From NCBI RefSeq assembly GCF_000346505.1, contig NZ_ANOH01000113.1:1-64000 (forward strand): a stretch of 64,000 bases of DNA. The letters are read 5' to 3'. The notes under the pieces were generated by a model that was not told where the DNA came from, searched no databases, and saw nothing but the letters and a program-made list of their open reading frames with translations. Position numbers and translations under genes: made by a program. The first letter of the stretch is position 1; every line of letters begins with the position of its first letter. Source of the DNA: Aporhodopirellula sallentina SM41 (GTDB lineage Bacteria; Planctomycetota; Planctomycetia; Pirellulales; Pirellulaceae). Positions 22,318 to 44,517 of the stretch are shown here, piece by piece.

Positions 22318-22685
22318 TAGGTGTCGGCCGTCCCCGACTCCCCCCTCATTTCTTCCTGCCCCAATCGCGGTTCGCACCGGAAGGTGCAAAGGCGGCGATT
22401 GTCGCCTGCATCTATTGGCGACACTTCGTGTAACGACGGCCGATGGCTGGCGTCCCTGCCAGGATGCGAGGCGTGCATCGTCGGATCAAAAGAGAGCTTG
22501 CAGGAACTCCTCTAAAGCCAAGTTTGGGCGGTTCAGGCGATCACTGGCCCGCTGGCATGCTCCGCTACTGCTAGTAGTTTTTCAGGCGGACCTCTCTGGG
22601 AGACTTGCGTGCGTATGAGGTTGCCCTCTGGGGTTGGCTAAGGATGGCTCGTCTTTTCCAAGTCCATTTTTTTACTGCCGTCCCG
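22318..22685. other. Spacer before GH43-GH5 gene
   Basis: 368 bp without a recognisable gene. A small GC-rich hairpin, AGGCG...CGCCT, occurs near 22390-22410. It probably contains the promoter of the next gene. Confidence 0.4.
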
Positions 22686-24857
22686 ATGCGAAAATTGTTT
22701 ACCCCATGTTTACTGGCAACTGCCTTGCTTGCTTTTTCCCCGCCGCAGACTTTGCAAGGCGAGCAGCCTCGCGAATCGCCCCAGGCCGACAAGTATCGTT
22801 CGATGCGAGTTCCAGTCCGGCTGCATGAGCTTGCGGATACGCCAGGCGCCATCGCCAAGCCGTTTTTTACCGACCCATACTACAACGGATCCTGTGACCC
22901 CGAGGCCGTTTGGAATCCCGTGTTAAACCAGTGGTTTGTCTATTACACCGCACGGCGTGCAACTCGCAAGAAGGCAACCTACGTTGGAACGGCCATCGGT
23001 GTCGTCAGCTCGCCAAACCTGTTGAAGTGGACGTTCCGGGGATACTGCGGTTTTGATGGCAAGCTAGGCAAGCCTGACAATGAGAATACTCACTGGGCGC
23101 CGGGCGTGATCGTTGCAGGTAATCGCCTGCACATGTTTGCCACTTACAAAGACTCAGCCAAGCCGCCTTGGGGTGGCGCTGGGGTCATTCGGCACTATAG
23201 CACGTCGCTGGATGACCCGGTGTCTGGGTGGAAGCTTGAGGGCGTGCCGGATTTCAGGCAGCCGGATCCGATCGACGTCTCGCTATTGCAGTACGAGGGC
23301 CGTTACCACGCCTACTATCGCGTTGGCAAAGGCGGAGGCATTCAATGGGCCACGTCGATCGACTTGGTGCATTGGGAGAATCAGGGTCCGTGTCTTGGGG
23401 ATGTCAATTCCGAAACGCGTGGCTTCGGCTACCAGGAAGCGCCCTACGTGTTTAGGTTTAGCAATGCATATTGGATGTTGACCGATCCGCACGAAGGGCT
23501 GGCAGTGTTCCGTAGCGACGATGCGGTTCATTGGACGCAGGCAGGCCGGATTCTAAAGGAAGACGGCAACGGCCCGCGGGACACCAGTCGGGCGCGACAC
23601 CCTTCCGTCTGCGTGACTGGTGGCAAGGCCTATATCTTCTATCACGTCGAACCAAATCGCCCGTACCCGAATCCGCCCGCTGAGAAGCGAACGGTTGACC
23701 AAAAACTTTCTTATCTTCAAATCGCCGAATTGACGGTTAGACAGGGCAGACTCGTTTGTGAGCGTGACCGCCCTGTGGTGCGTGATTCCGGTGCGATCGG
23801 TCGCTGGTCGAAAGAACGTGCAAATCGATGGTACGCTGGAATCGATTGGCCTGTGGGAGCCAACTTTGTTCCTTCTACCGCGGTTAATCAACTGGAGATG
23901 TGGCAGGCTGAATCCTATGATCCGGAAACGATCGATCGTGAACTCGGTTGGGCGGCATCGATTGGTATGAATACCATGCGCGTCTTCCTGCACGACCTGG
24001 CGTGGAATCGAGATCCAGACGGGTTCCTAAACCGGATGGACGAATACCTGGCAATCGCGGACAGGCACGGCATCCGTACCATGTTTGTATTCTTTGACGG
24101 AGTTTGGGATCCTTATCCTCAAGCAGGCCGACAAACGGCGCCGGCCCCGCGGATTCACAACTCGGGCTGGGTTCAATCACCAGGCCGCAAGATATTGGAG
24201 TCTCCTGATCAGCATGCTTCTTTGGAGGCTTACGTAACTGCGGTGGTCGAGCGATTCCGTGACGATGATCGTGTGCTGGCATGGGATCTGTTCAACGAGC
24301 CTGACAATTCAAACCAAGGTAACTATGGTGGTGATAGCCGCAAGCCTGACATTTCCCCTGGGCTCAAGAGCCAGCGTGCGCTGGAGTTGATGTCCGAGGC
24401 GTTTAGATGGGCGCGAGACGCTCGGCCATCGCAACCGCTAACGGCCGGAGTGTGGGGCAAGCCGGATTGGTTAACCGATCCGGACCTGATCGAGACATTC
24501 TCGCTTCTTCACAGCGATGTGATCACGTTTCACACCTACGATGGGCCCCTGGCAACTCGCGAGCTTATCGGGGACCTGCAGAAGTACGGCCGCCCTATTT
24601 TGTGCACAGAGTACCCGGCGAGAGCCGGCGGTTCGACGTTTGAAGCAATCCTGCCGCTTTTTCATCGTCATCGTGTGGGGGCATGCAATTGGGGTCTAGT
24701 CAATGGAAAGACCAACACAATTTATCCATGGGACTCTTGGAGAAAGAGCTATTCAGACGAGCCAGCGCTGTGGCACCACGACGTGCTTCGTCAAGACGGC
24801 ACGCCCTATCGGACAACCGAAGTAGAGCTCATTAAAGAGCTTTCCCAAACGCCTTGA
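22686..24857 (+). CDS. Exported GH43-like / GH5-like bifunctional glycosidase
   Basis: 723 aa with signal peptide (MRKLFTPCLLATALLAFS). Residues about 45-385 form a GH43/GH32-like five-bladed propeller; candidate catalytic residues are Asp in GSCDPEAVWNP, Asp in PDPIDVSLL and Glu in GYQEAPYVF. After the hinge GAIGRWSKERAN comes a GH5-type TIM barrel (about 400-723) with LGWAASIGMNTMRVFLHDL, acid/base Glu in WDLFNEPDN and nucleophile Glu in LCTEYPAR. The GH5 half is a close relative of the C-terminal third of the 1536-aa protein. Expected to hydrolyse glycosidic bonds in the periplasm or at the surface; substrates unknown. ATG 22686 was preferred to 22605 because it begins the signal peptide. 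Confidence 0.85.
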   Translation: MRKLFTPCLLATALLAFSPPQTLQGEQPRESPQADKYRSMRVPVRLHELADTPGAIAKPFFTDPYYNGSCDPEAVWNPVLNQWFVYYTARRATRKKATYVGTAIGVVSSPNLLKWTFRGYCGFDGKLGKPDNENTHWAPGVIVAGNRLHMFATYKDSAKPPWGGAGVIRHYSTSLDDPVSGWKLEGVPDFRQPDPIDVSLLQYEGRYHAYYRVGKGGGIQWATSIDLVHWENQGPCLGDVNSETRGFGYQEAPYVFRFSNAYWMLTDPHEGLAVFRSDDAVHWTQAGRILKEDGNGPRDTSRARHPSVCVTGGKAYIFYHVEPNRPYPNPPAEKRTVDQKLSYLQIAELTVRQGRLVCERDRPVVRDSGAIGRWSKERANRWYAGIDWPVGANFVPSTAVNQLEMWQAESYDPETIDRELGWAASIGMNTMRVFLHDLAWNRDPDGFLNRMDEYLAIADRHGIRTMFVFFDGVWDPYPQAGRQTAPAPRIHNSGWVQSPGRKILESPDQHASLEAYVTAVVERFRDDDRVLAWDLFNEPDNSNQGNYGGDSRKPDISPGLKSQRALELMSEAFRWARDARPSQPLTAGVWGKPDWLTDPDLIETFSLLHSDVITFHTYDGPLATRELIGDLQKYGRPILCTEYPARAGGSTFEAILPLFHRHRVGACNWGLVNGKTNTIYPWDSWRKSYSDEPALWHHDVLRQDGTPYRTTEVELIKELSQTP

Positions 24858-25099: not shown

Positions 25100-26194
25100 A
25101 TGAAGTTGCACCTTGGTCTTCTTGCTGGGCTATTCGTGGTCACGTCAGTGAACGCTCAAGTACGAGACTTCGATTCAATCAAGTTATATGAATTGAAGAA
25201 TGCGTCTGGGATGACGGTTAAAGTGACAAACTACGGCGCTATCATCGCGTCGATTATTGTGCCGGATCGCGATGGAGAAATGGTCGACATCGCACTCGGA
25301 TACGACAGGGTGGAAGACTATATCAATGCCGTCGACAAGCCTTATTTCGGTGCGGTTGTTGGTCGCTACGGGAACCGGATCGCAGACGGAGAGTTCACGC
25401 TGAACGGTGAAACCTATTCGCTGCTAAAGAACAACGGAGAGAATCACCTTCACGGTGGGGCAATTGGATTCGACAAGGTTGTTTGGACGGTCGACAGCTA
25501 CGTCGAAGGCAAATCGCTGGCGCTGTCGTATCTCGCAAAAGACAAGGAAGAAGGTTATCCGGGCAACCTCAAGCTCAAAGTGACCTACACGCTGAAGTCG
25601 GACAATTGTCTGGTCGTGGACTACCACGCAACAACCGACAAGGCCACGCCGGTAAACGTCACGCAGCACACCTACTTCAATCTTAAGGGTGAAGGCGAAG
25701 GCACAATTCTTGGTCACGAACTAATGTTGAACGCGAAGAAGTTCACGCCCGTTGGCGAAACCCTGATTCCGACTGGCCAGATGCCATCAGTCGCCGGAAC
25801 ACCCTTCGATTTCACGACTGCCAAACCCATTGGTCGCGACATCGAGCAAGATCACGAACAACTCAAGTTTGGGCTAGGTTACGACCACAACTGGGTACTC
25901 GACAAAGGCGATAAGACGGGTGAGCTGACGATGGCCGCAAAGGTTTGCGAACCGACCAGCGGACGCGTGATGGAGATTTACACGACAGAACCCGGAATCC
26001 AGTTTTACTGCGGCAACTTCCTTGACGGTCGTCTAACGGGAAAGTCAGGGAAGTCCTACGTCCATCGCGGCGGATTCTGTCTGGAGACACAGCACTATCC
26101 CGATAGCCCCAACCAAACAACTTTTCCATCCACGATTTTGAATCCGGGTGAAGAGCACACGTCACAAACTATCTTCAAGTTTTCGGTGCAATGA
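25100..26194 (+). CDS. Exported aldose 1-epimerase
   Basis: 364 aa, GalM-type mutarotase that interconverts alpha and beta anomers of aldoses. Signs: TNYGAIIASIIVPDR, GAVVGRYGNRIADG, NHLHGG (first catalytic His region), VTQHTYFNL (second His), GYDHNWVLD and C-terminal FCLETQHYPDSPN with the catalytic Glu. An N-terminal signal peptide (MKLHLGLLAGLFVVTSVNAQ) indicates a periplasmic form, unlike the common cytosolic enzyme. Its stop overlaps the next sulfatase start (26191-26194), so it opens a coupled plus-strand operon. Confidence 0.92.
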   Translation: MKLHLGLLAGLFVVTSVNAQVRDFDSIKLYELKNASGMTVKVTNYGAIIASIIVPDRDGEMVDIALGYDRVEDYINAVDKPYFGAVVGRYGNRIADGEFTLNGETYSLLKNNGENHLHGGAIGFDKVVWTVDSYVEGKSLALSYLAKDKEEGYPGNLKLKVTYTLKSDNCLVVDYHATTDKATPVNVTQHTYFNLKGEGEGTILGHELMLNAKKFTPVGETLIPTGQMPSVAGTPFDFTTAKPIGRDIEQDHEQLKFGLGYDHNWVLDKGDKTGELTMAAKVCEPTSGRVMEIYTTEPGIQFYCGNFLDGRLTGKSGKSYVHRGGFCLETQHYPDSPNQTTFPSTILNPGEEHTSQTIFKFSVQ

Positions 26195-27816
26195 TGAAAC
26201 AACTGTTGCTGCTGAAGCACCTGCTTGTCGTCCTTAATATGCTCGCATGCGCGGGCATGTGCAGTGCGGACGAACGCCCGAACATCGTGCTGATCATGGC
26301 CGATGATATGGGGTATTCCGATATCAACTGCTACGGCGGTGCGATCAACACGCCCAACATTGACAAGCTTGCTGAGGGTGGGTTGAGGTTTACGCAGTTC
26401 TACAACGCTGGGCGATGTTGCCCGACTCGTGCGTCGTTTCTGACCGGGCTTTACCCGCACGAAGCCGGTTTGGGGCACATGGTCTATGGCGACAAGGGCC
26501 CCGGCTATCATCCGTATCTGAACAAGCAGTGCGTCACGATTGCGGAAGTGCTTCGCGATGCGGGCTATCGAACCATGATGGCCGGCAAGTGGCACGTCGG
26601 TCACAAGCAGGGACAGTGGCCGACTGATCGCGGCTTCGAGCATTTTTACGGCATCCACCTTCAAGTTGACAGTTACTTCAAGGTGCTGCCGGGATGTCCG
26701 GTCTATCACAACGAAAAGATGGTGGTCCCACCGACGACTTCTCCAGAAAACACGCTGCATCCGGATCAGGAGTGGTACACAACGGCTGTGTTCGCTGATT
26801 GGTCGTTGAAGTTTCTAGACGAAGCGGCCGAAGATGAACGACCGTTCTTTCTCTACACGGCGTTTAACTCGCCTCATTGGCCGTTGGAAGCACCGGACGA
26901 AAACATTGCCAACTACGAAGGCAAGTACAACGAGGGATGGGACGTTCTGCGGGAACAGAAATTGGCACGGATGAAGGCCATGGGAATCGTATCTGCAGAG
27001 ACCGAGCTTTCTCCATCCAACTGTCCCGAATGGAAATCGCTTCCTGAACCCGATCAAAAAGAACTCGCCTTTCGCCGCCAAATCTACGCCGCTCAGATTG
27101 AACGCATGGACCAAAGCATCGGTCGCATCGTCGCGAAACTTCGTGAACTCGGAACGCTAGACAACACACTGCTGCTGTTTCTGTCAGACAACGGCTGCTG
27201 TGCCGAAGGCGGGATGTTCGGCTATCAGTGGAAGAAGAACACAAAGGCGAACTTCGCAGATTGGCGGAAGCAATCCGGACGATCCAGCAGCACGGGCGAA
27301 GCATGGTCCAGCGCATCCAATACACCGTTTCGACTGCACAAACGCTGGGTTCACGAAGGCGGAATCGCGACGCCGCTAATCGCACATTGGCCCAAGGTCA
27401 TCACCGAGGGTGGAAAGTTATCCCAGCAAGTCGGCCATGTGGTGGATGTCATGGCAACCTGTGTCGACGTTGCTGAGGCAGATTACCCCGAGGAGATCGA
27501 TAACAGAGCGATCAAACCACTTGCCGGATCTTCGCTGTTGCCGAACCTGCGAGACCGATCGATCGAGGCCGACCGAACTCTGTTCTGGGAACACGAAAAG
27601 CACGCCGCGATTCGCGTGGGTGATTGGAAGCTGGTGACGCTGAACGGAACCGACGAGGCCAAGTGGGAACTCTACGACATGAATCATGTCCGAACGGAAT
27701 CCAACAATGTGGCCGGCGAACAAGCGGAAAGAGTCAAACGATTAGCGAACCAGTGGACGACATGGGCTCAGCAAGCAAACGTACTTCCGTGGCCTCAAGA
27801 TCGAACAACCAAGTAA
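26191..27816 (+). CDS. Exported sulfatase
   Basis: 541 aa S1 sulfatase with signal peptide (LLLLKHLLVVLNMLACAGMCSA). Metal site MADDMGYSDINCYGG, maturation motif CCPTR, GKWHVGH with QWPTDRGFEHFYG, and LFLSDNGCCAEGG. Related to the gene at 61282-62864, with the same CCPTR version of the motif. Substrate unknown. The start overlaps the epimerase stop by 4 bp, and its stop is 7 bp before the 1889-aa gene, so these three are very probably co-transcribed. Confidence 0.92.
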   Translation: MMKQLLLLKHLLVVLNMLACAGMCSADERPNIVLIMADDMGYSDINCYGGAINTPNIDKLAEGGLRFTQFYNAGRCCPTRASFLTGLYPHEAGLGHMVYGDKGPGYHPYLNKQCVTIAEVLRDAGYRTMMAGKWHVGHKQGQWPTDRGFEHFYGIHLQVDSYFKVLPGCPVYHNEKMVVPPTTSPENTLHPDQEWYTTAVFADWSLKFLDEAAEDERPFFLYTAFNSPHWPLEAPDENIANYEGKYNEGWDVLREQKLARMKAMGIVSAETELSPSNCPEWKSLPEPDQKELAFRRQIYAAQIERMDQSIGRIVAKLRELGTLDNTLLLFLSDNGCCAEGGMFGYQWKKNTKANFADWRKQSGRSSSTGEAWSSASNTPFRLHKRWVHEGGIATPLIAHWPKVITEGGKLSQQVGHVVDVMATCVDVAEADYPEEIDNRAIKPLAGSSLLPNLRDRSIEADRTLFWEHEKHAAIRVGDWKLVTLNGTDEAKWELYDMNHVRTESNNVAGEQAERVKRLANQWTTWAQQANVLPWPQDRTTK

Positions 27817-27823
27817 GACGAAA

Positions 27824-30800
27824 ATGAATTCAAATATAGAAAACTCAGCAAGCAGTAATGATGGCAGAGGTAACTTGACGCCATCAGATTTCTCGACACT
27901 TTTTGGTAAGCCGAAGCGTAAGCGTAAGCGAGGGGCCAGTTCTTCGTTGGAGGCTATTGCTCGCAAAGGCTTCAGGTTTCCGATTCGGGCTCTTGCTTTA
28001 TCAATGCTCGTCTTGCTGGCCGCAGCCTTCCCTGCCTTCGCAGCCGAACGTCCAAACGTGCTGTTGATTTTGGTCGATGATCTGAAGCCTGCAATCGGAG
28101 CCTACGGCGACACATTGGCAAAGACGCCGAATATCGATCGGCTGGCAGCGAGCGGGATGCGATTTGACATGGCGTACTGCAATCAAGCCGTCTGCGCTCC
28201 CTCGCGGTTCACATTGATGCTCGGATCTCATTCAACCTCGACAGGACTGTACGGACTCGGAAGTCCATTGCGGCAGCTTGTCCCGAATGCGGTCACGATG
28301 CCGCAGTACTTTGCGAAACATGGTTATCGCACCGAGTCGCTCGGTAAAGTATTTCACATTGGCCATGGTAATCACGGTGACCCCGATTCATTCTCCGTTC
28401 CTCACTTCAAAGAAAAAGTGATTGAGTACGCTGACCCCGCTTCAACTCCCGGAGGCAAGCTGACTCGTGAAGAAGCGATGTTTCAGAACGTGGAAGCACC
28501 GAAGGGCGGGATGAATTCGTTGCCTCGAGGAGCAGCTTTTGAGAGTCCTGACGTTGCCGACGAAGCTTATGCGGATGGTCGGGTTGCGGCGGAAGCCATT
28601 CGGCGTTTGCAAGCAGCCAAAGAACGCGACCGGCCATTCTTTATCGTCGCTGGATTCGCTCGGCCTCATTTGCCGTTCTCGGCTCCGAAAAAGTACTGGG
28701 ACTTGTACAATACGGACGCGTTGAAGCTGGCCGCGAATCCCGACCTTCCAATCGATTCACCCAAGGTGGCTCACAAGCGTGGCGGCGAAATTCGTAATTA
28801 CTTCCCAGTTCCGGATAAAAATGACCCCGCCGCGATCGACGAAACAACTGCACGCAAACTCATCCATGGATACTACGCCAGCACAAGCTTTGTGGATGCT
28901 CAGATTGGCAAGATCCTTGACGAATTGGAGTCCTCTGGCCAGAGCGACAACACGATTGTCGTGCTTTGGGGCGACCATGGATTTCATCTCGGCGATCTGG
29001 GCATCTGGACCAAACACACAAACTACGAACAAGCCAATCGCATTCCGATTCTGATCTCAGCGCCCGGCGTCACGAAGCCCGGTTCTTCGACGAAGCAACT
29101 CACTGAAAGCGTCGACATCTTCCCAACGCTTGCGGAACTCGCAGGTCTTGACACCCCGATTGGTCCGCAACCGATCGACGGTTTGAGTCTTGTTCCGGTT
29201 TTGAAAGATCCGTCCGCTCGTGTTCGTGATCATGCTTATCATGCCTATCCAAATCAAAAACTCGGTCGCGCGATCCGGACCGAGCGATATCGAATGGTCG
29301 AGTGGCGAGCTTTTGGAGCGGCGGAAGATACAGCGGAATACGAACTCTATGACTACCAGAAAGATCCGTTAGAGCGACTGAATCTGGCCGCGACTCGGCC
29401 TGAAGTCGTCTCAAGGCTAAAAGAAATGCTGGCCAAATACCCGAATCCAGTCCCACGTGGAAAAAGAAGGAAGCCGGCAAAGAAAACGGTCGAGAAGCAG
29501 CTGACAATCCAAAAGTCGAACAACGCCCCAAACTTCGTGTTCATCCTCACTGACGATCAAGGCTGGACCGGTTTGAGCGTTCCGATGGACAAGTCGCGTA
29601 CAAACTCGCAAAGCGACTACTACCAAACTCCCAACATTGCTCGACTGGCAAAGTCCGGGATGCGATTCTCGCGAGGCTATTCACCGGCACCGAATTGTTC
29701 GCCATCACGGTACGCCAACCTCACTGGCAAGACCTGTGCACGGTTGTCGTTCACCGACATCGTTGGTCGCGGGCATGTCATAGATCTTAAGGGGAAACAG
29801 AAGCTGCGTCCCGGCGGCAAAGGAACGCGGGAGATTCTGGCAGCGGACATCACCATACCGGAATTGCTGAAGACACTTCCCGTCGGTTACCGGACGGCTC
29901 ATTTGGGAAAATGGCATTTGAAAGGAGGCGGGCCGGAAGCACATGGTTTCGACGTTTCTGATGGTGCAACAGGCAACAAAGAAGGCAGCAAAGGTCCCGC
30001 CGTAAAGAGCGATCCCAAACTAGCTTTCTCGATCACGTCACGAGCCAACGCGTTCATGGAGGCGTCCGTTGCCGACGGCAAACCATTCTATTGCCAAGTC
30101 TCTCACTATGCGGTGCACCAGAAGATTCAGCATCGCGCGGAGACACTGAAGAAGACTCAGGGATGGAAGTCAGGCAAAGCCCATAGCGATCCGGCTTACG
30201 CCGCGATGGTAGCCGATCTTGATGAGGCGGTCGGTCAGTTGCTGAATAAGATCGAAGACCTTGGCATCGGAGACAATACCTACATCATCTACCAAGCCGA
30301 CAACGGCAGCCCCAAATTTCTTTCCGAGAGCCCACCATTACGGAGGTATAAACCCGAAATCTGGGATGGCGGCGTTCGTGTGCCGACCTTCCTGAGCGGT
30401 CCCGGTATCGCAGCCGATTCCCAGTGTGATCATCCGGTCATGGGAATCGACATCCTGCCGACGATCTGGGAACTTGCCGGCGGCGATGCCGAACAATTGC
30501 CTGAAGACATTGACGGGGGCTCCATCGTTCGGACGGTCAAAGCAATCAGTGAGAAGGCAGTTGCAAGTCCCAACATTGAGAGAACCGGTGAACTGGTTGT
30601 CCATTCGCCGCACTACGTCCTCACGAAGGACCTCGCCAAGAACCAACGCCCATCCTCGGCAATCTTCGACGGCAAGTGGAAGCTTGTGGCGTGGTACGAG
30701 ACAGGTGAAGTTCAACTATTCGACCTCGATGCAGACATCTCCGAATCGACCGATGTCAGCAAACAGCATCCCGAGGTGAAACATGATCTCTGGACACGGC

Positions 30801-33493
30801 TTCGCGACTACTTGGCAAACACGAACGCGAGGCTACCGACGCTGGATCCGTTACACGAAAGTAATCCGGGCAAAGATGGTGACGCGGACAACGATGGTCT
30901 TCCCGATGAATGGGAGTTCCGCCAACTGCTGACGCATGTTCTCGGTCCAGAGGACGATTCAGATCAGGACGACAAGAGCAACCTTGCCGAGTTCAAAGCT
31001 AAGTCGGATCCGCTGGTGGCCAAACAACAACTGCAAACTGGATCCGCCGCATCGGCTCAAAAATCGAAGTCGTTTTCGCAACTTTCGGCTCGGTCGAGTG
31101 CAGAGATTCCTTACCCCATCCAGCTCGTCCACGAAGTGGAGTTAGCCCCCAAAGACTTCTGGCATCGACGTGTTGAGACCAATCACCAAGTGACCGTTTG
31201 GCATAACTTCCAGCAATGCGAAATCACCGGTCGGCTTAACAACTTTCGCAAAGCAGCGGGTGAGAAGCCCGGCTTCTACGAGGGGCTGCGATTCAACGAC
31301 TCAGACGTTCACAAGATCGTTGAAGGGGCAGCTCGCATTCTGGCGGTGAATGACGATCCAAAGCTCGATGAGTATCTGGACAAGCTGATCGCGACGATGG
31401 CGAAGGCTCAGGAGGACAACGGCTACCTCTACACCGTGATGCAAGTTCCTCACAATCCAAATCAGAGGCCAGTCAAAGGCGTGGTCTTCGGCGAACGCTG
31501 GCTGCACGAACAGGAGAGTCATGAAACCTATGCGATGGGACACCTCATCGAGGCTGGTGCAGTTCATTACGAAGCCACCGGAAAGCGCAACCTGCTCGAC
31601 ATTGCTATTAAGGCAGCAGACTGTCTGGACAAAGCGTTTGGGCCCGGCAAACTGGAGTTGCCTCCCGGTCACCAGCAGATTGAAATCGGCCTGGCAAAAC
31701 TCGCAGCCGTCACAGGAGAAGAACGCTACACCCGCCTTGCGAAGTTTTTTCTGGAACAACGGGGGCGGCGATCGGATGACCGCCGTCAAACTTGGGGCGT
31801 GTATTTCCAAGACCATCTTCCTGTCACCCAGCAGGCTGAAGCCGTTGGGCACTCCGTTCGCGCGGCATATCAATACATGGCGATGGCCGATCTGGCGGTA
31901 CTCACGGACGATGACGACTATCGCGACGCGCTTCACGATCTCTGGGAGAACGTAGCAAAGAGGAAACTGTATTTGACAGGCGGCATTGGCGGTGGCTCAG
32001 GCGAAGGATTCTCCGGGGAGTATCAGCTTCCCAACTTTCGCGCTTACAACGAAACCTGCTCGTCCATCGCCAACATACTTTGGCACCGTCGCATGTTTCA
32101 GTTGGAAGGCGATGCGAAGTATATCGATATCCTAGAACGCTGTCTTTACAACTCGTTCCTGTCTGGAGTAGGGATGGACGGCGACACGTTCTTCTATCCC
32201 AACAAGCTCACTTCGGTCACCGGTCACCGGCGTTCTGCATGGTTCAATTGTGCCTGTTGTCCGCCGAACGTGACTCGATTTCTTCCCCAGATCCCTTCGC
32301 TTATGTACGCGAAGAGTGACGACACTCTGTTCGTCAATCTGTTTGGATCAAACAACGCTTATTTCGCACTCGCCAACCAGACAGTCAAAGTTGAGCAATA
32401 TTCCAATTACCCCTGGGACGGGAACATTCAGCTCACGGTGCGACCTGCTGAACAGTCCGCGTTCAAATTGGCGTTGCGCATTCCAGGTTGGCTGAAGGTG
32501 CCATTTCCATCGGATCTTTACCGCTACGCCAATGACACCAAAACTGCTCCCCAGATTCAGGTTAATGGCGATCCGGTCGAGTTCTCAGAGAACAACGGTT
32601 ATGCGGTTATCACGCGCATCTGGCAGCCCGGAGACAAGATTGAACTCTCGCTTCCGATGACGGTTCGTCGCGTACTCGCTCATCCGAACGTCGCGGCAAC
32701 TCGAGATCGTGTGGCTCTGATGCGAGGTCCAATCGTGTATGCGGCAGAGGGCCCTGACAATGATGGCAAGGTTCACTCGTTGACCGTCCCCGACGAAGCG
32801 GCATTCACTGCAGAGTTCAGGGACAACCTGCTTGGTGGCGTCAATACGCTCATCGGGACGGTCAAAACTGTTGCGCGTTCTGGAAGCGAACTAAAGCAAT
32901 CGGACCACCAGCTTACCGCGATCCCTTACTACGCATGGGCACATCGCGGCGCTGCTCCAATGCGAGTCTGGCTGGCCGCCGAACCAAAGTCCGCATGGCC
33001 GTGTCAATCAGAGATGGCATATAGCCGAGCCAATGTCACTTCGTCGGGCAAGAATCCTTGGACTTCAGCTTCCTCTGCCAATGACCAGATTTTTGCCCCG
33101 GTATCTGGCGACAATGAAACGCCACGGTTCCTGTGGGACAAAACCTCCACGGCGCCAATCGGTGCGGAAGAGTTGGCAGGAACCGCAAAAGCCGACAGTC
33201 AGACCGGCGGCGTCCGTTGGATTCAGTACGACTTTGACGAGCCGGTTGAGATTTCTTCAACGGCTGTCTACTGGGTGACCGGTGGAAACGGGAACTGGGC
33301 GTTGCCACAGCAGTGTCGTCTGCTCTGCAAAAGAGATGGCGAGTGGCAGCAGGTAGACGCTGAACTGCCTCAGCCTAAAGCAGACATGTTGCAAAAAGCC
33401 GAATTTACTCGCCTCACTACGACATCTGTTCGTTTAGAGGTCGTTCCTCAGATAGGCAAGACTGCCGGCATCATGGAATGGGTCGTTGACTGA
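27824..33493 (+). CDS. Giant sulfatase-sulfatase-GH127 fusion protein
   Basis: 1889 aa. A long basic N-terminal leader (KPKRKRKR) precedes a hydrophobic signal core near residues 58-74 (SMLVLLAAAFPAFA). Sulfatase 1 (about 76-540) is iduronate-2-sulfatase-like, with VDDLKPAIGAYG and VCAPSRF (Cys 124). After a Lys-rich linker, sulfatase 2 (about 565-1010) has LTDDQGW, NCSPSRY (Cys 625) and QADNGSP. A calcium-type Asp loop, DGDADNDGLPDEWEF, sits near 1020. Residues about 1095-1700 are a GH127 domain with the Glu/Cys3 zinc site: YNETCSS (E1410, C1412) and CACCPPN (C1478, C1479). GH127 enzymes cleave beta-L-arabinofuranosides and related bonds. The last 150 residues form a beta-sandwich. All domains are in one uninterrupted frame with no internal signal peptides. 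Confidence 0.9.
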   Translation: MNSNIENSASSNDGRGNLTPSDFSTLFGKPKRKRKRGASSSLEAIARKGFRFPIRALALSMLVLLAAAFPAFAAERPNVLLILVDDLKPAIGAYGDTLAKTPNIDRLAASGMRFDMAYCNQAVCAPSRFTLMLGSHSTSTGLYGLGSPLRQLVPNAVTMPQYFAKHGYRTESLGKVFHIGHGNHGDPDSFSVPHFKEKVIEYADPASTPGGKLTREEAMFQNVEAPKGGMNSLPRGAAFESPDVADEAYADGRVAAEAIRRLQAAKERDRPFFIVAGFARPHLPFSAPKKYWDLYNTDALKLAANPDLPIDSPKVAHKRGGEIRNYFPVPDKNDPAAIDETTARKLIHGYYASTSFVDAQIGKILDELESSGQSDNTIVVLWGDHGFHLGDLGIWTKHTNYEQANRIPILISAPGVTKPGSSTKQLTESVDIFPTLAELAGLDTPIGPQPIDGLSLVPVLKDPSARVRDHAYHAYPNQKLGRAIRTERYRMVEWRAFGAAEDTAEYELYDYQKDPLERLNLAATRPEVVSRLKEMLAKYPNPVPRGKRRKPAKKTVEKQLTIQKSNNAPNFVFILTDDQGWTGLSVPMDKSRTNSQSDYYQTPNIARLAKSGMRFSRGYSPAPNCSPSRYANLTGKTCARLSFTDIVGRGHVIDLKGKQKLRPGGKGTREILAADITIPELLKTLPVGYRTAHLGKWHLKGGGPEAHGFDVSDGATGNKEGSKGPAVKSDPKLAFSITSRANAFMEASVADGKPFYCQVSHYAVHQKIQHRAETLKKTQGWKSGKAHSDPAYAAMVADLDEAVGQLLNKIEDLGIGDNTYIIYQADNGSPKFLSESPPLRRYKPEIWDGGVRVPTFLSGPGIAADSQCDHPVMGIDILPTIWELAGGDAEQLPEDIDGGSIVRTVKAISEKAVASPNIERTGELVVHSPHYVLTKDLAKNQRPSSAIFDGKWKLVAWYETGEVQLFDLDADISESTDVSKQHPEVKHDLWTRLRDYLANTNARLPTLDPLHESNPGKDGDADNDGLPDEWEFRQLLTHVLGPEDDSDQDDKSNLAEFKAKSDPLVAKQQLQTGSAASAQKSKSFSQLSARSSAEIPYPIQLVHEVELAPKDFWHRRVETNHQVTVWHNFQQCEITGRLNNFRKAAGEKPGFYEGLRFNDSDVHKIVEGAARILAVNDDPKLDEYLDKLIATMAKAQEDNGYLYTVMQVPHNPNQRPVKGVVFGERWLHEQESHETYAMGHLIEAGAVHYEATGKRNLLDIAIKAADCLDKAFGPGKLELPPGHQQIEIGLAKLAAVTGEERYTRLAKFFLEQRGRRSDDRRQTWGVYFQDHLPVTQQAEAVGHSVRAAYQYMAMADLAVLTDDDDYRDALHDLWENVAKRKLYLTGGIGGGSGEGFSGEYQLPNFRAYNETCSSIANILWHRRMFQLEGDAKYIDILERCLYNSFLSGVGMDGDTFFYPNKLTSVTGHRRSAWFNCACCPPNVTRFLPQIPSLMYAKSDDTLFVNLFGSNNAYFALANQTVKVEQYSNYPWDGNIQLTVRPAEQSAFKLALRIPGWLKVPFPSDLYRYANDTKTAPQIQVNGDPVEFSENNGYAVITRIWQPGDKIELSLPMTVRRVLAHPNVAATRDRVALMRGPIVYAAEGPDNDGKVHSLTVPDEAAFTAEFRDNLLGGVNTLIGTVKTVARSGSELKQSDHQLTAIPYYAWAHRGAAPMRVWLAAEPKSAWPCQSEMAYSRANVTSSGKNPWTSASSANDQIFAPVSGDNETPRFLWDKTSTAPIGAEELAGTAKADSQTGGVRWIQYDFDEPVEISSTAVYWVTGGNGNWALPQQCRLLCKRDGEWQQVDAELPQPKADMLQKAEFTRLTTTSVRLEVVPQIGKTAGIMEWVVD

Positions 33494-38164: not shown

Positions 38165-39364
38165 ATGACAAGGCGAAAATTCTTGAAGCAATCGGGAGTT
38201 CTGGCGGCTACATCTGCACTTGGCTCGAATCGGATTTTGCGTGGTACGGAGCCTGCGACGGACGACCTTTCAGGTCACATCGTTGAACACGCCGAATTCA
38301 AAAATGTGCGATTCAGCTATCCACGCTCGGTTGGAAAGAACGGTCGGATAGGTCACCACGGACAGCATAAGTCAGTGCCCATTGCCAAGATACATACAAA
38401 CCAGGGTGCAATGGGATGGGGGATCGCACCGGGCAACGCCCAGCAAAACCAACGACTGATCGACGCCGTTGTTGGTAAACCTCTAAACGAGTTGTTCAAT
38501 GTCGGTGTCGGCATTCTGGATGGGGTTCCACAACGATTCGATTTTGCGTTGCACGATCTTGCTGGAATCAGTCTTGACCAACCGGTCTACAAGCTGCTCG
38601 GCACCAAAGGCAAGAAAGCAAATACCGTCTACAGTGGCATGATCTATCTCGACGAATTGGAGCCGGTGGATAACCCTGCCGGATTCGACAAAGTCATCGA
38701 GAATTGCCAGTGGGACATCGACTACGGATACCGGCAACTCAAGGTGAAGATCGGTCGAAGCGGCCGATGGTATCCGCACGACGAAGGCCTGCGTGCAGAC
38801 ATCGCCATCGTAAACCGCATTCATGAGATGTTCGCCGACCAGGGCGTTGTGATTCTGGTCGATGCGAACGATGTGTACAGCTTTCAGGACACCATCGACT
38901 TCTTACATGGAATCAAAGATGTGCCCTTGTATTGGTTGGAAGAGCCGTTCGTAGAAGAACGAAAAAAGTGCAAGCAGTTGCGGCAGTGGATGGATTCCAA
39001 CGGGTTTGAAAAGACGCTTTACGCAGATGGAGAACGGGAGCCTAATCTCAAGCTTTGTTCGGAGCTCTACAAGCAGGGATCCCTCGATGTCTGCCTGCAC
39101 GACATCAACAGCTATGGCTTCACCAAATGGCGAAAGCTTATGCCAAAGCTGATCGAAACCAAGACGGTGGTAAGTCCTCACGCATGGGGATCGCGATTCA
39201 AGACTCAATACTGTGCTCATCTGGCAGCTGGTCTGGGCAATTTTTGCACCATCGAAGGTGTCACATGCGAATCAGAAGACGTCGACTTCGGCGACTACTC
39301 GATCAAGGATGGAAAATTGCATGTTTCTGACAAACCCGGCTTCGGAATGAAACTGCTGGTTTAG
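38165..39364 (+). CDS. Tat-exported enolase-superfamily (mandelate racemase-like) enzyme
   Basis: 399 aa. Twin-arginine leader (TRRKFLKQSGVLAATSALG). Enolase-superfamily barrel with KxK catalytic pair (LKVKIG), metal ligands in LVDANDVYS, WLEEPF and YADGE, and a C-terminal SPHAWGS with a likely catalytic His. Members dehydrate or epimerise acid sugars; which sugar acid cannot be told. Export is uncommon for this family but fits its place among secreted enzymes. It lies 6 bp after the GH2-GH43-GH5 gene and 67 bp before a GH2 gene. Confidence 0.82.
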   Translation: MTRRKFLKQSGVLAATSALGSNRILRGTEPATDDLSGHIVEHAEFKNVRFSYPRSVGKNGRIGHHGQHKSVPIAKIHTNQGAMGWGIAPGNAQQNQRLIDAVVGKPLNELFNVGVGILDGVPQRFDFALHDLAGISLDQPVYKLLGTKGKKANTVYSGMIYLDELEPVDNPAGFDKVIENCQWDIDYGYRQLKVKIGRSGRWYPHDEGLRADIAIVNRIHEMFADQGVVILVDANDVYSFQDTIDFLHGIKDVPLYWLEEPFVEERKKCKQLRQWMDSNGFEKTLYADGEREPNLKLCSELYKQGSLDVCLHDINSYGFTKWRKLMPKLIETKTVVSPHAWGSRFKTQYCAHLAAGLGNFCTIEGVTCESEDVDFGDYSIKDGKLHVSDKPGFGMKLLV

Positions 39365-39431: not shown

Positions 39432-41771
39432 ATGAATGCTCTCAGAACCAGTTGTGCAATCGCCGCCACTTTCATGGCTACAGTTGCGACGGCCCAGTGG
39501 AAGCCAGCTGATGGACCAATGAAAACACGTTGGACCGATCAAGTCACACCGGAGAATGTGTTGCCGGAGCACCCGCAACCGCTTTTTCGGCGGGACGCTT
39601 GGATGTCGCTCAACGGGCTTTGGAATTTCAAACTTGAAAAGACGGAGTTCAAGGCAATTCAAGGCTTCATCGAGATGGCCAGCATGACCGAAGGAGCCTC
39701 TCCTCAGGAGTGGGACGGCGAATTGCTGGTCCCATTCACGGTGGATGCCCCGCTTTCTGGAGTGATGCATATACTGCGTCCACAAGAACGTCTGTGGTAT
39801 CAGCGCGAATTCAACTTGCCAGAAGGCATGCAAGGCAAACGGATATTACTCCACATTGAAGCGAGTGATTGGGAAACCTCGGTCTACGTCAATGGCAAGA
39901 AGGTGGGGCAGCATCGCGGAGCCTACGATCCGTTCTCGTTCGAGATCACAGACGCATTGGTCTCCGGATCCAACAAGTTGTCGGTGTGCGTTTGGGACGC
40001 AACCGAGCAACAGGCTCAGCCACTTGGCAAACAGATCATGCCGGAAAACCGAATGGGATTCCGCTATCAGCCGACCGGTGGGATTTGGCAACCGGTGTGG
40101 ATCGAAGCGGTATCGAAGAGCTACCTCGCATCGGCCAAATTGCGTTCGGACGTGACCGGATTGACCGTGACACCTGACGTTGTCGGTTCTGGAACAGTAA
40201 AGGTTCGTGTGCTGGACGGCGAACAGGTCGTCGGTGAAGCAGTAGGCGAGGGGGAGATTCGGGTTGACGTGCCGTCTCCGAAGCTGTGGTCGCCGGAAAC
40301 GCCCAACCTCTATGCAGTCGAACTGCTGCTTGAAGAAGATGGCAAGGTGGTCGATCGTGTGTCCAGCCACACGGGTTTGCGAACCATCTCCAAAAACGAC
40401 GCCGGCGAAATACTACTCAACGGCAAGCCCATCGTGATGTACGGGCCTCTAGATCAAGGCTATTGGCCCGATGGAATTCTTACCCCACCGTCCGACGAAG
40501 CGATCATCTACGACCTGCAGTACCTGAAAGACATCGGTTGTAACATGGTGCGTGTCCACATTAAGACGCATCCGGCGCGTTGGTACCATCACGCCGATCG
40601 GCTCGGTCTGCTGGTGATCCAAGACATGATTTGCATGCCAAAGTACGGACAGACGGTGACTGCTGAGGCCTCGGCCAATTGGACGCGTGAGTTTGCTGAG
40701 ATGATCGCCGATTTCGGAAACCATCCATCAATCATTTCGTGGTGCGTCTTTAACGAAGCGTGGGGACAACACGAAACCATTCAACAGACAGCGTGGGCGA
40801 AAGAAACGGATCCCAGTCGATTAACGCTCAGTGCCAGCGGTTGGACCGACCGTGGCGTGGGCGACATCCTGGATGTTCATCAATACGCCACCTATCCCAC
40901 GATGCCGATTGAGGACAAATCCGGTCGATGCATCACGATTGGTGAGGCGGGCGGCCACAACTTGATCGTCGACGACCACCATTGGCATGGCAAAAAAAAC
41001 GCTCGACGTTCTTCGCCACCGATGTCAGTGTCCGGCAAACGAATGACCTTTGCCGGCATTGAAGATATGGATCGTAAGTACGACTTCTATTTTCGCAACC
41101 TTCGGCACTTCGTTACCCGCGGCGGATGCCGAAGCATTGTCTACACGCAAATCGCTGATGTCGAGCACGAGTGCAATGGCTACATGACCTACGACCGCGA
41201 GGTCTCCAAGTTGCCGAAGAAGCGATTTGCAGACATCCACGAGTGGCTCTTCAAGCCGGTGGAGTACTCGGTGGTGAACGGTGGTCGCTGGCAACGCATG
41301 TCTCTGGTAACTCCGAAAGGCAAGAAACCGAAACTTGATTGGGAAAAAGCGACCGGAGAATGGACCACCACGGAACTTCCCATGGAATCGGCCCAAGGGC
41401 TAGGTACCGATGAAGAACGTTCCATGCTGGCACTCAAGCAGCAATTTGAGATCAGCGAGTCACCGCAGAGAGCCGTGCTGGAGATTCGCTTCAAGAATGG
41501 TTCGTTCAACCGAGAGCCGAAGCCCGAGAGACTTGATGGCCATCAACCTCGCCCTGCAGTGACGACGCGGGTCGCAATCACGCTTGACGGCAAGCCTTTT
41601 CGCGACCACCTGATGAGCGTTCACACAGGCCACGGCCTGTCCGTGAGCTATTTGGAATTGACCAATGAAGAAGTCGCCGCCTTAAGCACCGGGGCACACG
41701 AAATCGGCTTGATGTTTCCAGCGGCGAATGAACTCTATTCGTTGGATGTTCAATTGCTGAGTTACCGGTGA
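39432..41771 (+). CDS. Exported GH2 family glycoside hydrolase
   Basis: 779 aa with signal peptide MNALRTSCAIAATFMATVATAQ. Domains in order: sugar-binding jelly-roll (about 45-210, LLHIEASDWETSVYVNG), an Ig-like domain (about 215-325), TIM barrel with acid/base Glu in FNEAWGQ (E442) and nucleophile Glu in TIGEAGGHN (E505), then a C-terminal beta domain. It is the full-length relative of the truncated gene at 43360-44517. Family members include beta-galactosidase and beta-glucuronidase; specificity unknown. A palindromic repeat follows its stop at 41810-41865. Confidence 0.9.
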   Translation: MNALRTSCAIAATFMATVATAQWKPADGPMKTRWTDQVTPENVLPEHPQPLFRRDAWMSLNGLWNFKLEKTEFKAIQGFIEMASMTEGASPQEWDGELLVPFTVDAPLSGVMHILRPQERLWYQREFNLPEGMQGKRILLHIEASDWETSVYVNGKKVGQHRGAYDPFSFEITDALVSGSNKLSVCVWDATEQQAQPLGKQIMPENRMGFRYQPTGGIWQPVWIEAVSKSYLASAKLRSDVTGLTVTPDVVGSGTVKVRVLDGEQVVGEAVGEGEIRVDVPSPKLWSPETPNLYAVELLLEEDGKVVDRVSSHTGLRTISKNDAGEILLNGKPIVMYGPLDQGYWPDGILTPPSDEAIIYDLQYLKDIGCNMVRVHIKTHPARWYHHADRLGLLVIQDMICMPKYGQTVTAEASANWTREFAEMIADFGNHPSIISWCVFNEAWGQHETIQQTAWAKETDPSRLTLSASGWTDRGVGDILDVHQYATYPTMPIEDKSGRCITIGEAGGHNLIVDDHHWHGKKNARRSSPPMSVSGKRMTFAGIEDMDRKYDFYFRNLRHFVTRGGCRSIVYTQIADVEHECNGYMTYDREVSKLPKKRFADIHEWLFKPVEYSVVNGGRWQRMSLVTPKGKKPKLDWEKATGEWTTTELPMESAQGLGTDEERSMLALKQQFEISESPQRAVLEIRFKNGSFNREPKPERLDGHQPRPAVTTRVAITLDGKPFRDHLMSVHTGHGLSVSYLELTNEEVAALSTGAHEIGLMFPAANELYSLDVQLLSYR

Positions 41772-41895: not shown

Positions 41896-43341
41896 ATGAA
41901 ACTTGCCGCATTGTTTTTTTCTGTGATCGTTGCCTCGACGAACATCTGCTTCGCCGAACAACCGAACATCGTTGTCTATTTGTCCGACGACCACTCTCAA
42001 TTTGACTCCAGCCTCTATGGCAACGACAACATTCCCACGCCTCAGATGGAAGCGTTGGCGGCCGATGGAATGACGTTCACTCACGCCTTTGTAGCGTCAC
42101 CATCGTGTGCGCCAAGTCGTGCGGCAATGCTGACCGGGTTGATGCCAGCTCGCAATGGCGCAGAGGCCAATCACACGTTTCCCAAGCCTGGAACGCATTG
42201 TTTGATTCAGGACTTGCAAGCCGCAGGATACGAAGTGGTCTCGTTTGGCAAAGTCGCTCATGGCAGCCCCAAGCAAGTCGAACGGTACGGTTTTGACTTC
42301 GTCGGTAACGGCAAACCGATCGATCAAGTCCGAACGCAGGTTCTTCAGTTCCTCAAGCAACGAGAACGCGCAGATCGGACGGACAAACCGCTTTGCCTGT
42401 TCGTCGGCACCACCAACCCGCACGTGGCCTGGGAAAGTCCCGCGACTTTTGATCCAGCGAAGGTTGAGTTCCCACCGCATCATCTCAACACACCGGACAC
42501 CCGATCGCACCGGGCGGCTTACTACCAGGAAATCAAGGAACTCGATGCGTTTCTTGGTGAGCTTCGAGGCATCGCGGACAAACAGCTTGGCGACGACACG
42601 CTTTTCATTCACACCAGCGATCACGGTTCGCAGTGGCCGTTCGGCAAATGGACGCTCTACGACTACGGGATTCGCGTTCCGTTCATTGCCGCGTGGAACG
42701 GCAAGATTGCGGCGGGATCAAAATCCGAGGCAATGATTAGTTGGGTGGACTTGCTGCCAACTTTACTGGACATCGGCGGTGCGAAGACTTCCGAGGAACT
42801 CGACGGTCGCTCTTTCGCGGGAGTATTGCGGGGTGAAACGGAGCAGCATCGCGACGTGATTTTTACGACGAACACGGGCGACGGGATTAAGAACATCTTT
42901 CCCATCCGCAGCATTCGTACCCGACAGTGGAAACTGATCCATAACCTGCATCCCGAGTTTGCATTCACCAATCACACGGACCTGGATCGCAAACCGATGG
43001 CGGGAGCGTACTGGACCGAGTGGGCCGAGCTTGCCAAGACGGATGATCGAGCAAAAGAGATTGTCGATCGCTACTACCAGCGACCTGAGTGGGAGCTATT
43101 CGACGTCAGCCAGGATGAATGGGAGCAAACCAATCTAATCGATGAACCTGCGCAATCAGAACGCATTGCCGAGATGAAAGAACAACTCGCAGCTTGGATG
43201 GAATCACAAGGCGACCAGCATATCGTCAACAGCGAACCGCGACTGCTGGAGGACAAAGAACGCTGGCATCCTGACTTCTATGAACTTCAACGACAAGTAA
43301 ACGAGGCGACTCTGCAGCGTTCACGGGGGCAGGCAAAGTAG
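41896..43341 (+). CDS. Exported sulfatase (N-sulfoglucosamine sulfohydrolase-like)
   Basis: 481 aa with signal peptide MKLAALFFSVIVASTNICFA. Metal site LSDDHSQFDSSLYG, maturation motif SCAPSRAAMLTG, and HTSDHGSQWPFGKWTLYDYG. This layout resembles heparan N-sulfatase-type members of family S1, though the substrate here is unknown. A shorter relative with altered metal residues is encoded at 48978-50279. Preceded by the palindromic repeat and followed after 18 bp by the truncated GH2 gene. Confidence 0.9.
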   Translation: MKLAALFFSVIVASTNICFAEQPNIVVYLSDDHSQFDSSLYGNDNIPTPQMEALAADGMTFTHAFVASPSCAPSRAAMLTGLMPARNGAEANHTFPKPGTHCLIQDLQAAGYEVVSFGKVAHGSPKQVERYGFDFVGNGKPIDQVRTQVLQFLKQRERADRTDKPLCLFVGTTNPHVAWESPATFDPAKVEFPPHHLNTPDTRSHRAAYYQEIKELDAFLGELRGIADKQLGDDTLFIHTSDHGSQWPFGKWTLYDYGIRVPFIAAWNGKIAAGSKSEAMISWVDLLPTLLDIGGAKTSEELDGRSFAGVLRGETEQHRDVIFTTNTGDGIKNIFPIRSIRTRQWKLIHNLHPEFAFTNHTDLDRKPMAGAYWTEWAELAKTDDRAKEIVDRYYQRPEWELFDVSQDEWEQTNLIDEPAQSERIAEMKEQLAAWMESQGDQHIVNSEPRLLEDKERWHPDFYELQRQVNEATLQRSRGQAK

Positions 43342-43359: not shown

Positions 43360-44517
43360 ATGTCTCCATTTCAACTCTATCAAAGTACGCCTCGGACCAA
43401 GTGCCCTCCGTATCGAAAGGTTGGGTGGAGTGTGCGCCGATGGCTGGGACGGTTGGTCGCGATCGTTTTCGTGGCGTTGTTGTACTTCCCGTGTTCGGCA
43501 GATACGCCGTCGGGTGATGCGGCGACCGCTGGTGCGATCTTCAAACATCATCGCAGGCTACAAGACACAGAAAATATTGTTCACTGGGCCGAGGATCTAC
43601 TGCCCAATCACATTGTTTCTGCTGCCAGCGGCTGGGACGACGTCGACGATCTCGGCGAAATTCGCGATCTTCATGACTACGAACGATTCCCGTCAGTGAC
43701 GTACCCGGACCGCGAAACAGAACGCGCCATTGTCTTGGGCGAGACTGGCGGATTTGGTGTTCCGATCAATGGGAATAACTGGTTGTCGATGCCCAAACCA
43801 CGTGATCCAGGAACGCCAGACGGTCGAGTTCCTGAAAGAGCTCGACAAGGTGCGATGGCGCCAAGGAATGCTCGAGCGGACGAAGATTTTTTCAGTGATA
43901 TCAAACGTCCTGTCTACAGCACCTCGGCGTTGGCCCAACACTACGAACACTACATCGACACGATGTGGTTGGGGCAAAGCTACGGGCTGTCTGGCGGTGT
44001 CTACACGCAGTTCACGGATATGCGCCACGAACAGAACGGCTGGCTCACGTTTGACAGGAAAGTCAGCAAGATTCCCGTCGACAAGCTGCGTCAGATTCAC
44101 GAACGACTCTTCCAGCCTGTCCCCAAACGAGTGCCGCTGATCGATCGCCGATCGCACTGGAATGCCGCAAACGGAAGACCACAGAGTGCACCGTTTGACT
44201 TCTCAGACTCGCAACCGGCAACGTTCACGACGCAATTTGTTGTCGCATCGAAGGTGCGGGCGGCGACGCTCAATATCGAAATCACAACGAGCCAAGCAAA
44301 CGTGCAGGCATTCGGATACCTACTGGTGTATCTGGATGGAAAACTGATCTTTGATGACAAGACGCGTCATCGAAAACCCGAGCATCGAATTTCCTGTATC
44401 CCGCTCACTGCCAACCAACTCGAGCTGCTCAAACCGGGGACGCATGAACTCAAGCTAGAAGTGAAGCCCAAGTTTCCCATCACGGCGTTGGACGTGCATC
44501 TGGATGCGGTTGAATGA
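43360..44517 (+). CDS. Truncated GH2-like protein with signal peptide
   Basis: 385 aa. A signal-anchor-like segment (RRWLGRLVAIVFVALLYFPCSA) leads within 40 residues into the C-terminal half of a GH2 hydrolase: ASGWDD, LHDYERFP, ERAIVLGETGGFG (keeps the nucleophile Glu region), GGVYTQFTDMRHEQNGWLTFDRKVSKIP. It lacks the sugar-binding domain, Ig domain and the barrel half with the acid/base Glu that the 779-aa paralogue has. Around 43815-43880 the reading looks unlike the family and may be a local frame slip. Likely inactive and possibly a pseudogene, although one frame is open throughout. The stop overlaps an upstream frame of the next sulfatase, whose ATG is at 44574. Confidence 0.6.
   Translation: MSPFQLYQSTPRTKCPPYRKVGWSVRRWLGRLVAIVFVALLYFPCSADTPSGDAATAGAIFKHHRRLQDTENIVHWAEDLLPNHIVSAASGWDDVDDLGEIRDLHDYERFPSVTYPDRETERAIVLGETGGFGVPINGNNWLSMPKPRDPGTPDGRVPERARQGAMAPRNARADEDFFSDIKRPVYSTSALAQHYEHYIDTMWLGQSYGLSGGVYTQFTDMRHEQNGWLTFDRKVSKIPVDKLRQIHERLFQPVPKRVPLIDRRSHWNAANGRPQSAPFDFSDSQPATFTTQFVVASKVRAATLNIEITTSQANVQAFGYLLVYLDGKLIFDDKTRHRKPEHRISCIPLTANQLELLKPGTHELKLEVKPKFPITALDVHLDAVE

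Follow-up and report, generated by a model that had tools for sequence, protein, structure and literature searches.

A predicted sulfatase-sulfatase-GH127 fusion protein of Aporhodopirellula sallentina and permuted fusions of related modules in Planctomycetota

Introduction

Does one long open reading frame of the planctomycete Aporhodopirellula sallentina SM41 encode a single exported protein with two sulfatases and a GH127 enzyme, and on which glycan would such a protein act? Genomes of this kind carry very many sulfatases, few of them with an assignable substrate, and fusions suggest sulfatase-glycosidase pairings. In two planctomycetes, 34 and 21 multi-domain sulfatase genes have been estimated, mostly with glycoside hydrolase and hypothetical domains (PMC4807772, available part). 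Sulfatase fusions with GH10, GH32, and GH29 domains have been described (PMC6388578, available part), and characterized multi-modular CAZymes of the phylum are said to be still wanting in the accessible portion of PMC11131199. In this study, we analyzed the window, a stretch of 64,000 nucleotides (contig NZ_ANOH01000113.1, positions 1 to 64,000). We consider it probable that the frame encodes a fusion of three enzymes that were once separate genes of a single catabolic locus, exported as one chain and working as a desulfation-then-cleavage relay.

Results and Discussion

An uninterrupted frame with a single signal peptide

The original prediction described an 1889-aa protein with no frameshift and one signal peptide, and both points held. 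The frame at exactly 27824-33493 on the forward strand begins with an ATG, and its translation is uninterrupted, with no internal stops. The most hydrophobic 15-mers of the whole chain all begin at residues 50-61, which points to a single signal peptide with a putative cleavage site, read by eye, at AFA-AE. The ATG lies 7 bases 3' of the stop of an upstream sulfatase gene. Translation probably begins with codon 42, a TTG (27947), and would yield a protein of 1848 aa, since GAGGGG stands upstream of this codon, an ordinary signal peptide runs from there, and codons 1-41 are off-pattern (G+C by codon position 0.37/0.56/0.41 versus 0.61/0.44/0.58 in codons 42-100). Residues are numbered throughout from the ATG of the 1889-aa frame, as in the original prediction. 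The predicted features are as follows.

26191..27816, + strand: sulfatase gene ending 7 bases before the fusion ATG
27824..33493, + strand: sulfatase-sulfatase-GH127 fusion protein, 1889-aa open frame
27947..28048, + strand: probable TTG start and signal peptide, to about residue 75, hydrophobic core about 56-72
28052..29443, + strand: sulfatase module 1, residues 77-540, iduronate-2-sulfatase-like (Pfam; nearest solved chain 6HHM, 303 bits)
28193..28207, + strand: formylglycine motif CAPSR, C124 (module 1)
29516..30856, + strand: sulfatase module 2, residues 565-1011 (Pfam; nearest solved chain 9FO1, 223 bits)
29696..29710, + strand: formylglycine motif CSPSR, C625 (module 2)
30875..31021, + strand: Asp-rich linker, residues 1018-1066 (weak TSP3-repeat-like match)
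31136..32974, + strand: GH127 module, residues 1105-1717, with catalytic, middle, and C domains (Pfam, solved relatives)
32003..32260, + strand: GH127 active-site stretch, E1394 (acid/base), E1410, C1412, C1478 (nucleophile), C1479
32981..33490, + strand: C-terminal F5/8-type (galactose-binding-like) domain, residues 1720-1889

Pfam recognized two stretches of Sulfatase PF00884 (294 bits; cut-off 25), two stretches of SGSH_C, and the GH127 domains. Homologues close to each module exist without the other two, which argues that the three-module reading is not due to chance. As judged from its sequence, the product is a secreted single chain with three catalytic modules whose active sites are intact.

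Two sulfatase modules

The motifs CAPSR and CSPSR begin at residues 124 and 625 and are thus 501 residues apart, as predicted. Both modules combine the C-x-P-S-R of S1 formylglycine sulfatases with conserved metal- and sulfate-binding residues. In an alignment of 95 rows, 11 of 13 active-site positions were identical between the modules (the paired Asp, formylglycine Cys, Pro, Ser, Arg, Lys, His, His, Asp, and Lys). One differing position, H385 in module 1 and N827 in module 2, is N or H in all other sulfatase rows compared, and the other, H398/P844, is variable among the other sulfatases compared. Module 1, which we take to belong to SulfAtlas subfamily S1_7, has orthologues that reach 85% identity within the family. 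Its nearest solved chain, 6HHM, is presumably an ulvan-locus enzyme, and 9FO1, nearest to module 2, is labelled a kappa-carrageenan sulfatase S1_16. The genome is sulfatase-rich, with 241 matches to the fusion protein. For formylglycine maturation, it has two FGE-type PF03781 matches over the cut-off, one of them partial, and the best match in the genome to a radical-SAM sulfatase maturase reached 26 bits, below the cut-off.

An arabinofuranosidase-like GH127 module

The GH127 module scored 328.6 bits with PF07944 (catalytic; cut-off 24.9), 85.9 with PF20736 (middle; 24.2), and 84.9 with PF20737 (C-terminal; 23.7). Its E1394, E1410, C1412, C1478, and C1479 align with E322, E338, C340, C417, and C418 of HypBA1, of which we take E322 to be the acid/base and C417 the nucleophile. 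The alignment confirmed the full Glu/Cys3 site that had been predicted (E1410, C1412, C1478, and C1479) and adds E1394, not named before, as the acid/base Glu. The nearest solved structures were 6EX6 (577 bits; titled beta-arabinofuranosidase BT3674), 4QJY (463), HypBA1 (3WKW; 314), and 5MQO (BT_1003; 308). The substrate-site residues of HypBA1 are H142, Y145, H194, and R273 (PMC10850190). In this study, we found them kept in the module as H1233, Y1236, H1283, and R1346, and the same four are kept in all 21 window-side relatives picked for comparison.

A GH127 tree was made from 63 of 83 aligned rows, the 20 left out comprising near-copies, repeat copies from a single locus, and two rows that matched poorly. 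The window module shared only one weak open fork (64/91) with 6EX6, with 4QJY and HypBA1 across it. A wider DagA-like clade of 16 rows (100/100, branch 1.47) holds two Flammeovirga enzymes and excludes the window module, and at two positions where the window module and HypBA1 have H and R, N and L stand in all ten rows of an inner DagA-like clade. Based on the pocket residues and the clade, the GH127 of the window is, by sequence comparison, arabinofuranosidase-like and not of the carrageenan type. The guess that an L-arabinofuranose-type unit is released gains from this, in that the pocket residues match those of beta-L-arabinofuranosidases. Two further genes for GH127 enzymes in this genome, L002 and L005, lie inside the carrageenan-type DagA-like clade, apart from that of the window.

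The best NCBIfam name for the module, aceric acid hydrolase NF049879, was rejected at 455.3 bits versus a cut-off of 950. A structure model of the GH127 and C-terminal domains, built with 4 sequences, was of low confidence (mean pLDDT 59.7), and the fold matches of this low-confidence GH127 model agreed with the sequence searches.

The linker carries the motif DADNDG at residue 1020, in keeping with the Asp-rich calcium-type loop of the original prediction, but a calcium-binding repeat is weakly backed, as TSP3_bac matched at E 0.002 and 18.3 bits, below the cut-off of 25. The last 170 residues matched F5/8 type C at E 5.1e-5 and 23.8 bits, below the cut-off of 28.2; the homologous C-terminal domain in L190, another planctomycete protein, reached 28.3 bits.

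Neighboring genes of the locus

The following genes flank the fusion.

22605..24857, + strand: GH43/GH159-like - GH5-like fusion, 750 aa
33548..38158, + strand: next gene, 1536 aa, jelly roll - GH2 - GH43 - GH5-like fusion (jelly roll is our own reading of the N-terminal part)
38165..39364, + strand: enolase-superfamily (MR_MLE) protein with a twin-arginine-like signal
39432..41771, + strand: second GH2 protein

The GH2 of the next gene has 7SF2 and beta-D-galactofuranosidases (9J6N, 389 bits) as its closest matches. The sole solved-chain match of the GH43-like part of 22605-24857 was the GH159 enzyme Ch_Gaf159A, and GH159 enzymes are reported to act on beta-galactofuranosides and alpha-L-arabinofuranosides (PMC9278983, available part). 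The export signal of the MR_MLE protein seems unusual for a sugar-acid enzyme; its nearest solved chain, 3N4F, gave no specific name. A DUF1559 protein is also encoded in the window and, like the wealth of sulfatases, would suit a Rhodopirellula-like planctomycete.

Occurrence and history of the architecture

An architecture search had been proposed as a check, and it found the full sulfatase-sulfatase-GH127 arrangement in the genome of the window only, a single draft genome, among the candidates scored in overlapping family, class, and phylum samples. The best candidates were scored per genome (up to four in the family, up to two in the phylum and class), and the search may have passed over weaker relatives. 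In the family, 74 of 241 genomes matched the GH127 part at E 1e-75, and 19 listed GH127 places besides the window had an open frame of more than 1000 aa. Three of them (G183, G093, and G184) also hold one sulfatase, which is of another type; a long region separates it from the GH127, which belongs to another clade. In the GH127-bearing frames of the remaining 16, no sulfatase turned up by blastp with modules 1 and 2, although the piece examined ended 55-73 aa short of the open frame for six; one of the 16 comes from the genome of the window itself (C39). Pfam scans of seven of these 16 gave Sde182, GH43, F5/8, second GH127-like, 3-keto-disaccharide-hydrolase-like, or weak DUF1349 matches and no sulfatase. 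In the phylum sample, 36 of 392 genomes matched at E 1e-120, and all nine frames of more than 1000 aa were without a sulfatase by blastp. In the class sample (35 of 397 genomes at E 1e-140), the only frames of more than 1000 aa apart from the window's were those of G177, G182, and G183, which were already in the family set. Among 1036 plasmid records with a match, none covered 80% of the whole protein.

The closest GH127, 68% identical, was a separate gene with its own signal peptide (by eye) in a Verrucomicrobiota MAG (L048), where a four-base overlap joins its ATG to the stop of a sulfatase gene with 36% identity to module 1. In G138, a genome of another genus, sulfatase 1 (85% identity) continues in frame into a sulfatase 2 stump that runs over a stop and corresponds to window residues 892-995 (49% identical, E 8e-23). 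The orthologue of the gene that follows the fusion in the window (jelly roll 74%, GH2 79%, GH43 83%), a 1167-aa frame without the GH5-like part (L107), lies directly behind the stump, and a GH127 match was not found between the two. The simplest history suggested by these comparisons would be a successive fusion of locus neighbors, with the first step common to another genus. Sulfatase 1 was matched at E 1e-125 in nine of the 12 other genomes of the genus, in eight of them at 70-78% identity, and it looks native to the genus. Modules 2 and 3 look imported, since sulfatase 2 was found at E 1e-90 in none of these 12 genomes and the GH127 matches, present in seven at E 1e-60, were at most 43% identical.

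Permuted fusions of related modules

We compared 81 relatives of sulfatase 1, namely the best 75 of 127 listed non-own family places and six of 12 non-own phylum places; some of these neighborhoods are cut by contig ends. Among the 52 family places left out, only G085 has a frame of more than 700 aa (998), and the six phylum places left out have 491-623 aa. Of these relatives, 51 stand alone, 17 have nothing more than a C-terminal tail of 143-162 aa, and 13 are fused to a further module. In each of the 13, the fusion partner was a homologue of something in the window's locus.

G138: sulfatase 1 + sulfatase 2 stump
G009: sulfatase 1 + GH2 (cut short)
G190: sulfatase 1 + GH2-GH43
G215, G203, G214, G210: sulfatase 1 + GH5-GH43
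G205, G060, G061: sulfatase 1 + GH5
G528: sulfatase 1 + GH43
G454: sulfatase 1 + relative (47%) of the sulfatase of 41896-43341
G317: GH5 ahead of sulfatase 1

The fusions in G060 and G528 come from one-contig genomes. In three genomes (L142, L145, and L147), sulfatase 1 stands beside a protein that joins relatives of the sulfatases of 41896 and 44514, and a window-type GH127 is fused behind GH2 and a jelly roll (L190, L191) or ahead of them (L192). Counting order, nine combinations were found outside the window (S1-GH2, S1-GH2-GH43, S1-GH5-GH43, S1-GH5, GH5-S1, S1-GH43, GH2-GH43, GH2-GH127, and GH127-GH2, where S1 is sulfatase 1), and GH2-GH43-GH5 and GH43-GH5 are fused within the window itself. 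Since relatives of the locus modules are fused in nine other combinations elsewhere in the phylum, these recombined fusions hint that sulfatase 1, GH2, GH43-like, GH5-like, and GH127 modules are tied to one pathway. Partners were recognized by homology to the window's locus, a bias that is limited because no unfused sulfatase 1 relative has an extra part of more than 162 aa behind it. In a small control of four further long sulfatase proteins from the window's genome, one had a beta-helix with GLAA-B barrels, one YHYH, one nothing that Pfam knows, and one, encoded just beyond the window, GH43 domains. The permutation pattern is more interesting than the single architecture.

A 1590-aa frame of G232 (L103:2893-7662) contains three sulfatase domains, and sulfatase 2 of the window shares 44% identity with the middle one.

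Proposed mechanism and alternative explanations

In the proposed relay, a formylglycine-generating (FGE-type) enzyme would convert C124 and C625 before export. The two sulfatases would clear the non-reducing end of an oligosaccharide of its blocking sulfates. With its Cys nucleophile on Zn and its Glu acid/base, the GH127 would then free the terminal furanose thus exposed, for which a beta-L-arabinofuranose-type unit is most likely. The C-terminal F5/8-type domain may hold the glycan, and the neighbors (the GH2 near beta-D-galactofuranosidases and the GH159-like protein) would carry on the same breakdown. The advantage would be desulfation and then cleavage, in order, on one captured chain. 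From the sulfatases and the furanose theme of the GH127, GH2, and GH159-like relatives, we propose a sulfated, furanose-bearing polysaccharide as the target. Since relatives of the same few modules recur in many pairings, a handful of expressed proteins could reveal which glycan is attacked, in what order the steps run, and whether desulfation-dependent cleavage is faster when the enzymes are joined. A bolder and quite tentative idea is that Planctomycetota repeatedly re-cut one pathway for an undescribed sulfated furanose-rich polysaccharide into various fusions, the window protein being a self-contained desulfate-desulfate-cleave unit. If true, this would be the first enzyme for sulfated beta-L-arabinofuranosides, and fused neighbors would show which pathway steps adjoin. 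Weighing against the proposed relay are the restriction of the full architecture, as far as searched, to one draft genome, the weak fork with 6EX6, the aceric acid hydrolase name as the best NCBIfam hit, though far below its cut-off, and the quite different glycans of the nearest solved relatives of the two sulfatases. In addition, 68 of the 81 sulfatase 1 relatives lack a fused enzyme module.

An assembly or base-calling artefact, in which a lost stop or an indel joined two or three adjacent genes, is highly improbable. The genome is a draft of 491 contigs, the closest GH127 (L048) is a separate gene whose ATG (9929) overlaps a sulfatase-gene stop, and the split sulfatase genes at 61264-62864 could mean base errors in the assembly. 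However, a lost stop between exported genes would leave their signal peptides, and no ATG or hydrophobic segment was found at either joint (only GTG at codons 572, 1065, and 1105). The maximum hydropathy is 0.23 and 0.47 at the joints versus 2.3 in the real signal peptide, and the coding G+C pattern is kept in both linkers, with 0.50/0.42/0.54 in the first, which is short (24 codons), and 0.67/0.40/0.55 in the second (93 codons). The sulfatase 2 stump joined in frame to sulfatase 1 in G138, from another genus, also argues for a true fusion.

Two other explanations accept the fusion and dispute its function. We rejected as very unlikely the reading of the GH127 as an alpha-1,3-(3,6-anhydro)-D-galactosidase (DagA type) in a protein that works on carrageenan, because the 16-row clade with the two Flammeovirga enzymes (stand-ins here for Zobellia DagA) includes L002 and L005 and excludes the window module, and because the pocket residues N and L of the inner clade differ from the H and R shared by the module and HypBA1. 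What speaks for carrageenan is that marine GH127 enzymes of Zobellia beside sulfatases are DagA enzymes (PMC5698469, available part), that sulfatase 2 is nearest to a kappa-carrageenan S1_16 sulfatase, and that a carrageenan-use-like Flammeovirga locus combines GH127, sulfatases, GH2, and MR_MLE. This locus also holds an aldehyde dehydrogenase, a 2-dehydro-3-deoxygalactonokinase, and an aldolase, a gene set close to the carrageenan-use genes in the accessible text of PMC5698469. The modules may also be linked for shared export or anchoring only, each acting on different residues or glycans with no hand-over. We regard this as unlikely but worth serious consideration, as co-export would also explain that sulfatase 1 has several different fusion partners in different species. 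The nearest solved relatives of sulfatases 1 and 2 come from different polysaccharide systems and quite different glycans, namely ulvan (presumably, for 6HHM) and kappa-carrageenan. On the other hand, the partners in all 13 fused relatives among the 81 examined are homologous to the window's locus, and the small control gave two proteins with unrelated partners, one with none known to Pfam, and one with GH43. The relay of two desulfations and a cleavage is the reading that we prefer.

Comparison with known systems

The original claim that no enzyme with this arrangement has been described stood for the exact arrangement, as no report of two sulfatases with a GH127, or of permuted fusions of one module set, was found in the available parts of the open-licence literature. 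Total novelty is too strong a claim, since two-sulfatase genes and sulfatase-glycosidase fusions are published (PMC4807772, PMC6388578, and PMC8511951, each in its available part). Like the window protein, P36 of Formosa agariphila has a sulfatase (S1_25) and an exo-glycosidase (GH78 rhamnosidase) in one polypeptide, for ulvan. According to the accessible part of PMC8511951, its sulfatase desulfates the non-reducing-end sugar and GH78 then removes it, in consecutive steps, which sets a precedent for the proposed relay. It differs in having one sulfatase, GH78 and not GH127, and a place in a Bacteroidota ulvan pathway. Porphyra-associated planctomycetes have fused adjacent sulfatase genes and sulfatase-glycoside hydrolase fusions, as here, but no GH127 and no three-enzyme chain are described in the available part of that report (PMC4807772).

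BT3674 (6EX6), Ara127N (4QJY), and HypBA1 (3WKW) share with the GH127 module the domains, the Zn site, and the catalytic and four substrate-site residues; they are 45, 43, and 38% identical to it over aligned columns, and their deposited chains are without a sulfatase. In the same family, L053, L054, and L055 (frames of 1819, 1770, and 1735 aa) join a sulfatase and a GH127 in one chain, as here. Unlike in the window, their one sulfatase is of another type, a long region lies between, and the GH127 is of another clade at 44-45%; the long region of L053, the sole one scanned, gave a weak DUF1349 match. From other planctomycete lineages, L190 and L191 (GH2 - jelly roll - GH127) and L192 (GH127 - GH2 - jelly roll) have a window-type GH127 (48-51%) and the same C-terminal domain, and the GH2 and jelly roll fused to it are homologous (42-50%) to modules encoded by the gene after the fusion in the window. 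They differ from the window protein in having no sulfatase in the chain, and the order is reversed between L190/L191 and L192.

Other observations in the window

The sulfatase split over the overlapping frames 61264-61800 and 61623-62864 (profile positions 1-110 and 113-301) is a broken gene or a sequencing error. A sulfatase fragment at 47879-48829, preceded by a 159-aa ORF at 47354-47833, begins at profile position 113 and is possibly a second broken sulfatase gene. The 385-aa protein of 43360-44517 has no Pfam match; by eye, it resembles the C-terminal part of the GH2 neighbors with a new signal sequence and without the catalytic part. In a divergent neighboring cluster, 13382-16078 on the reverse strand encodes an 898-aa sulfatase - GH43 fusion. 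Across the end of the window, a 1234-aa frame (L066:853-4554; contig C113, 62852-66553) combines a sulfatase with GH43 in two stretches.
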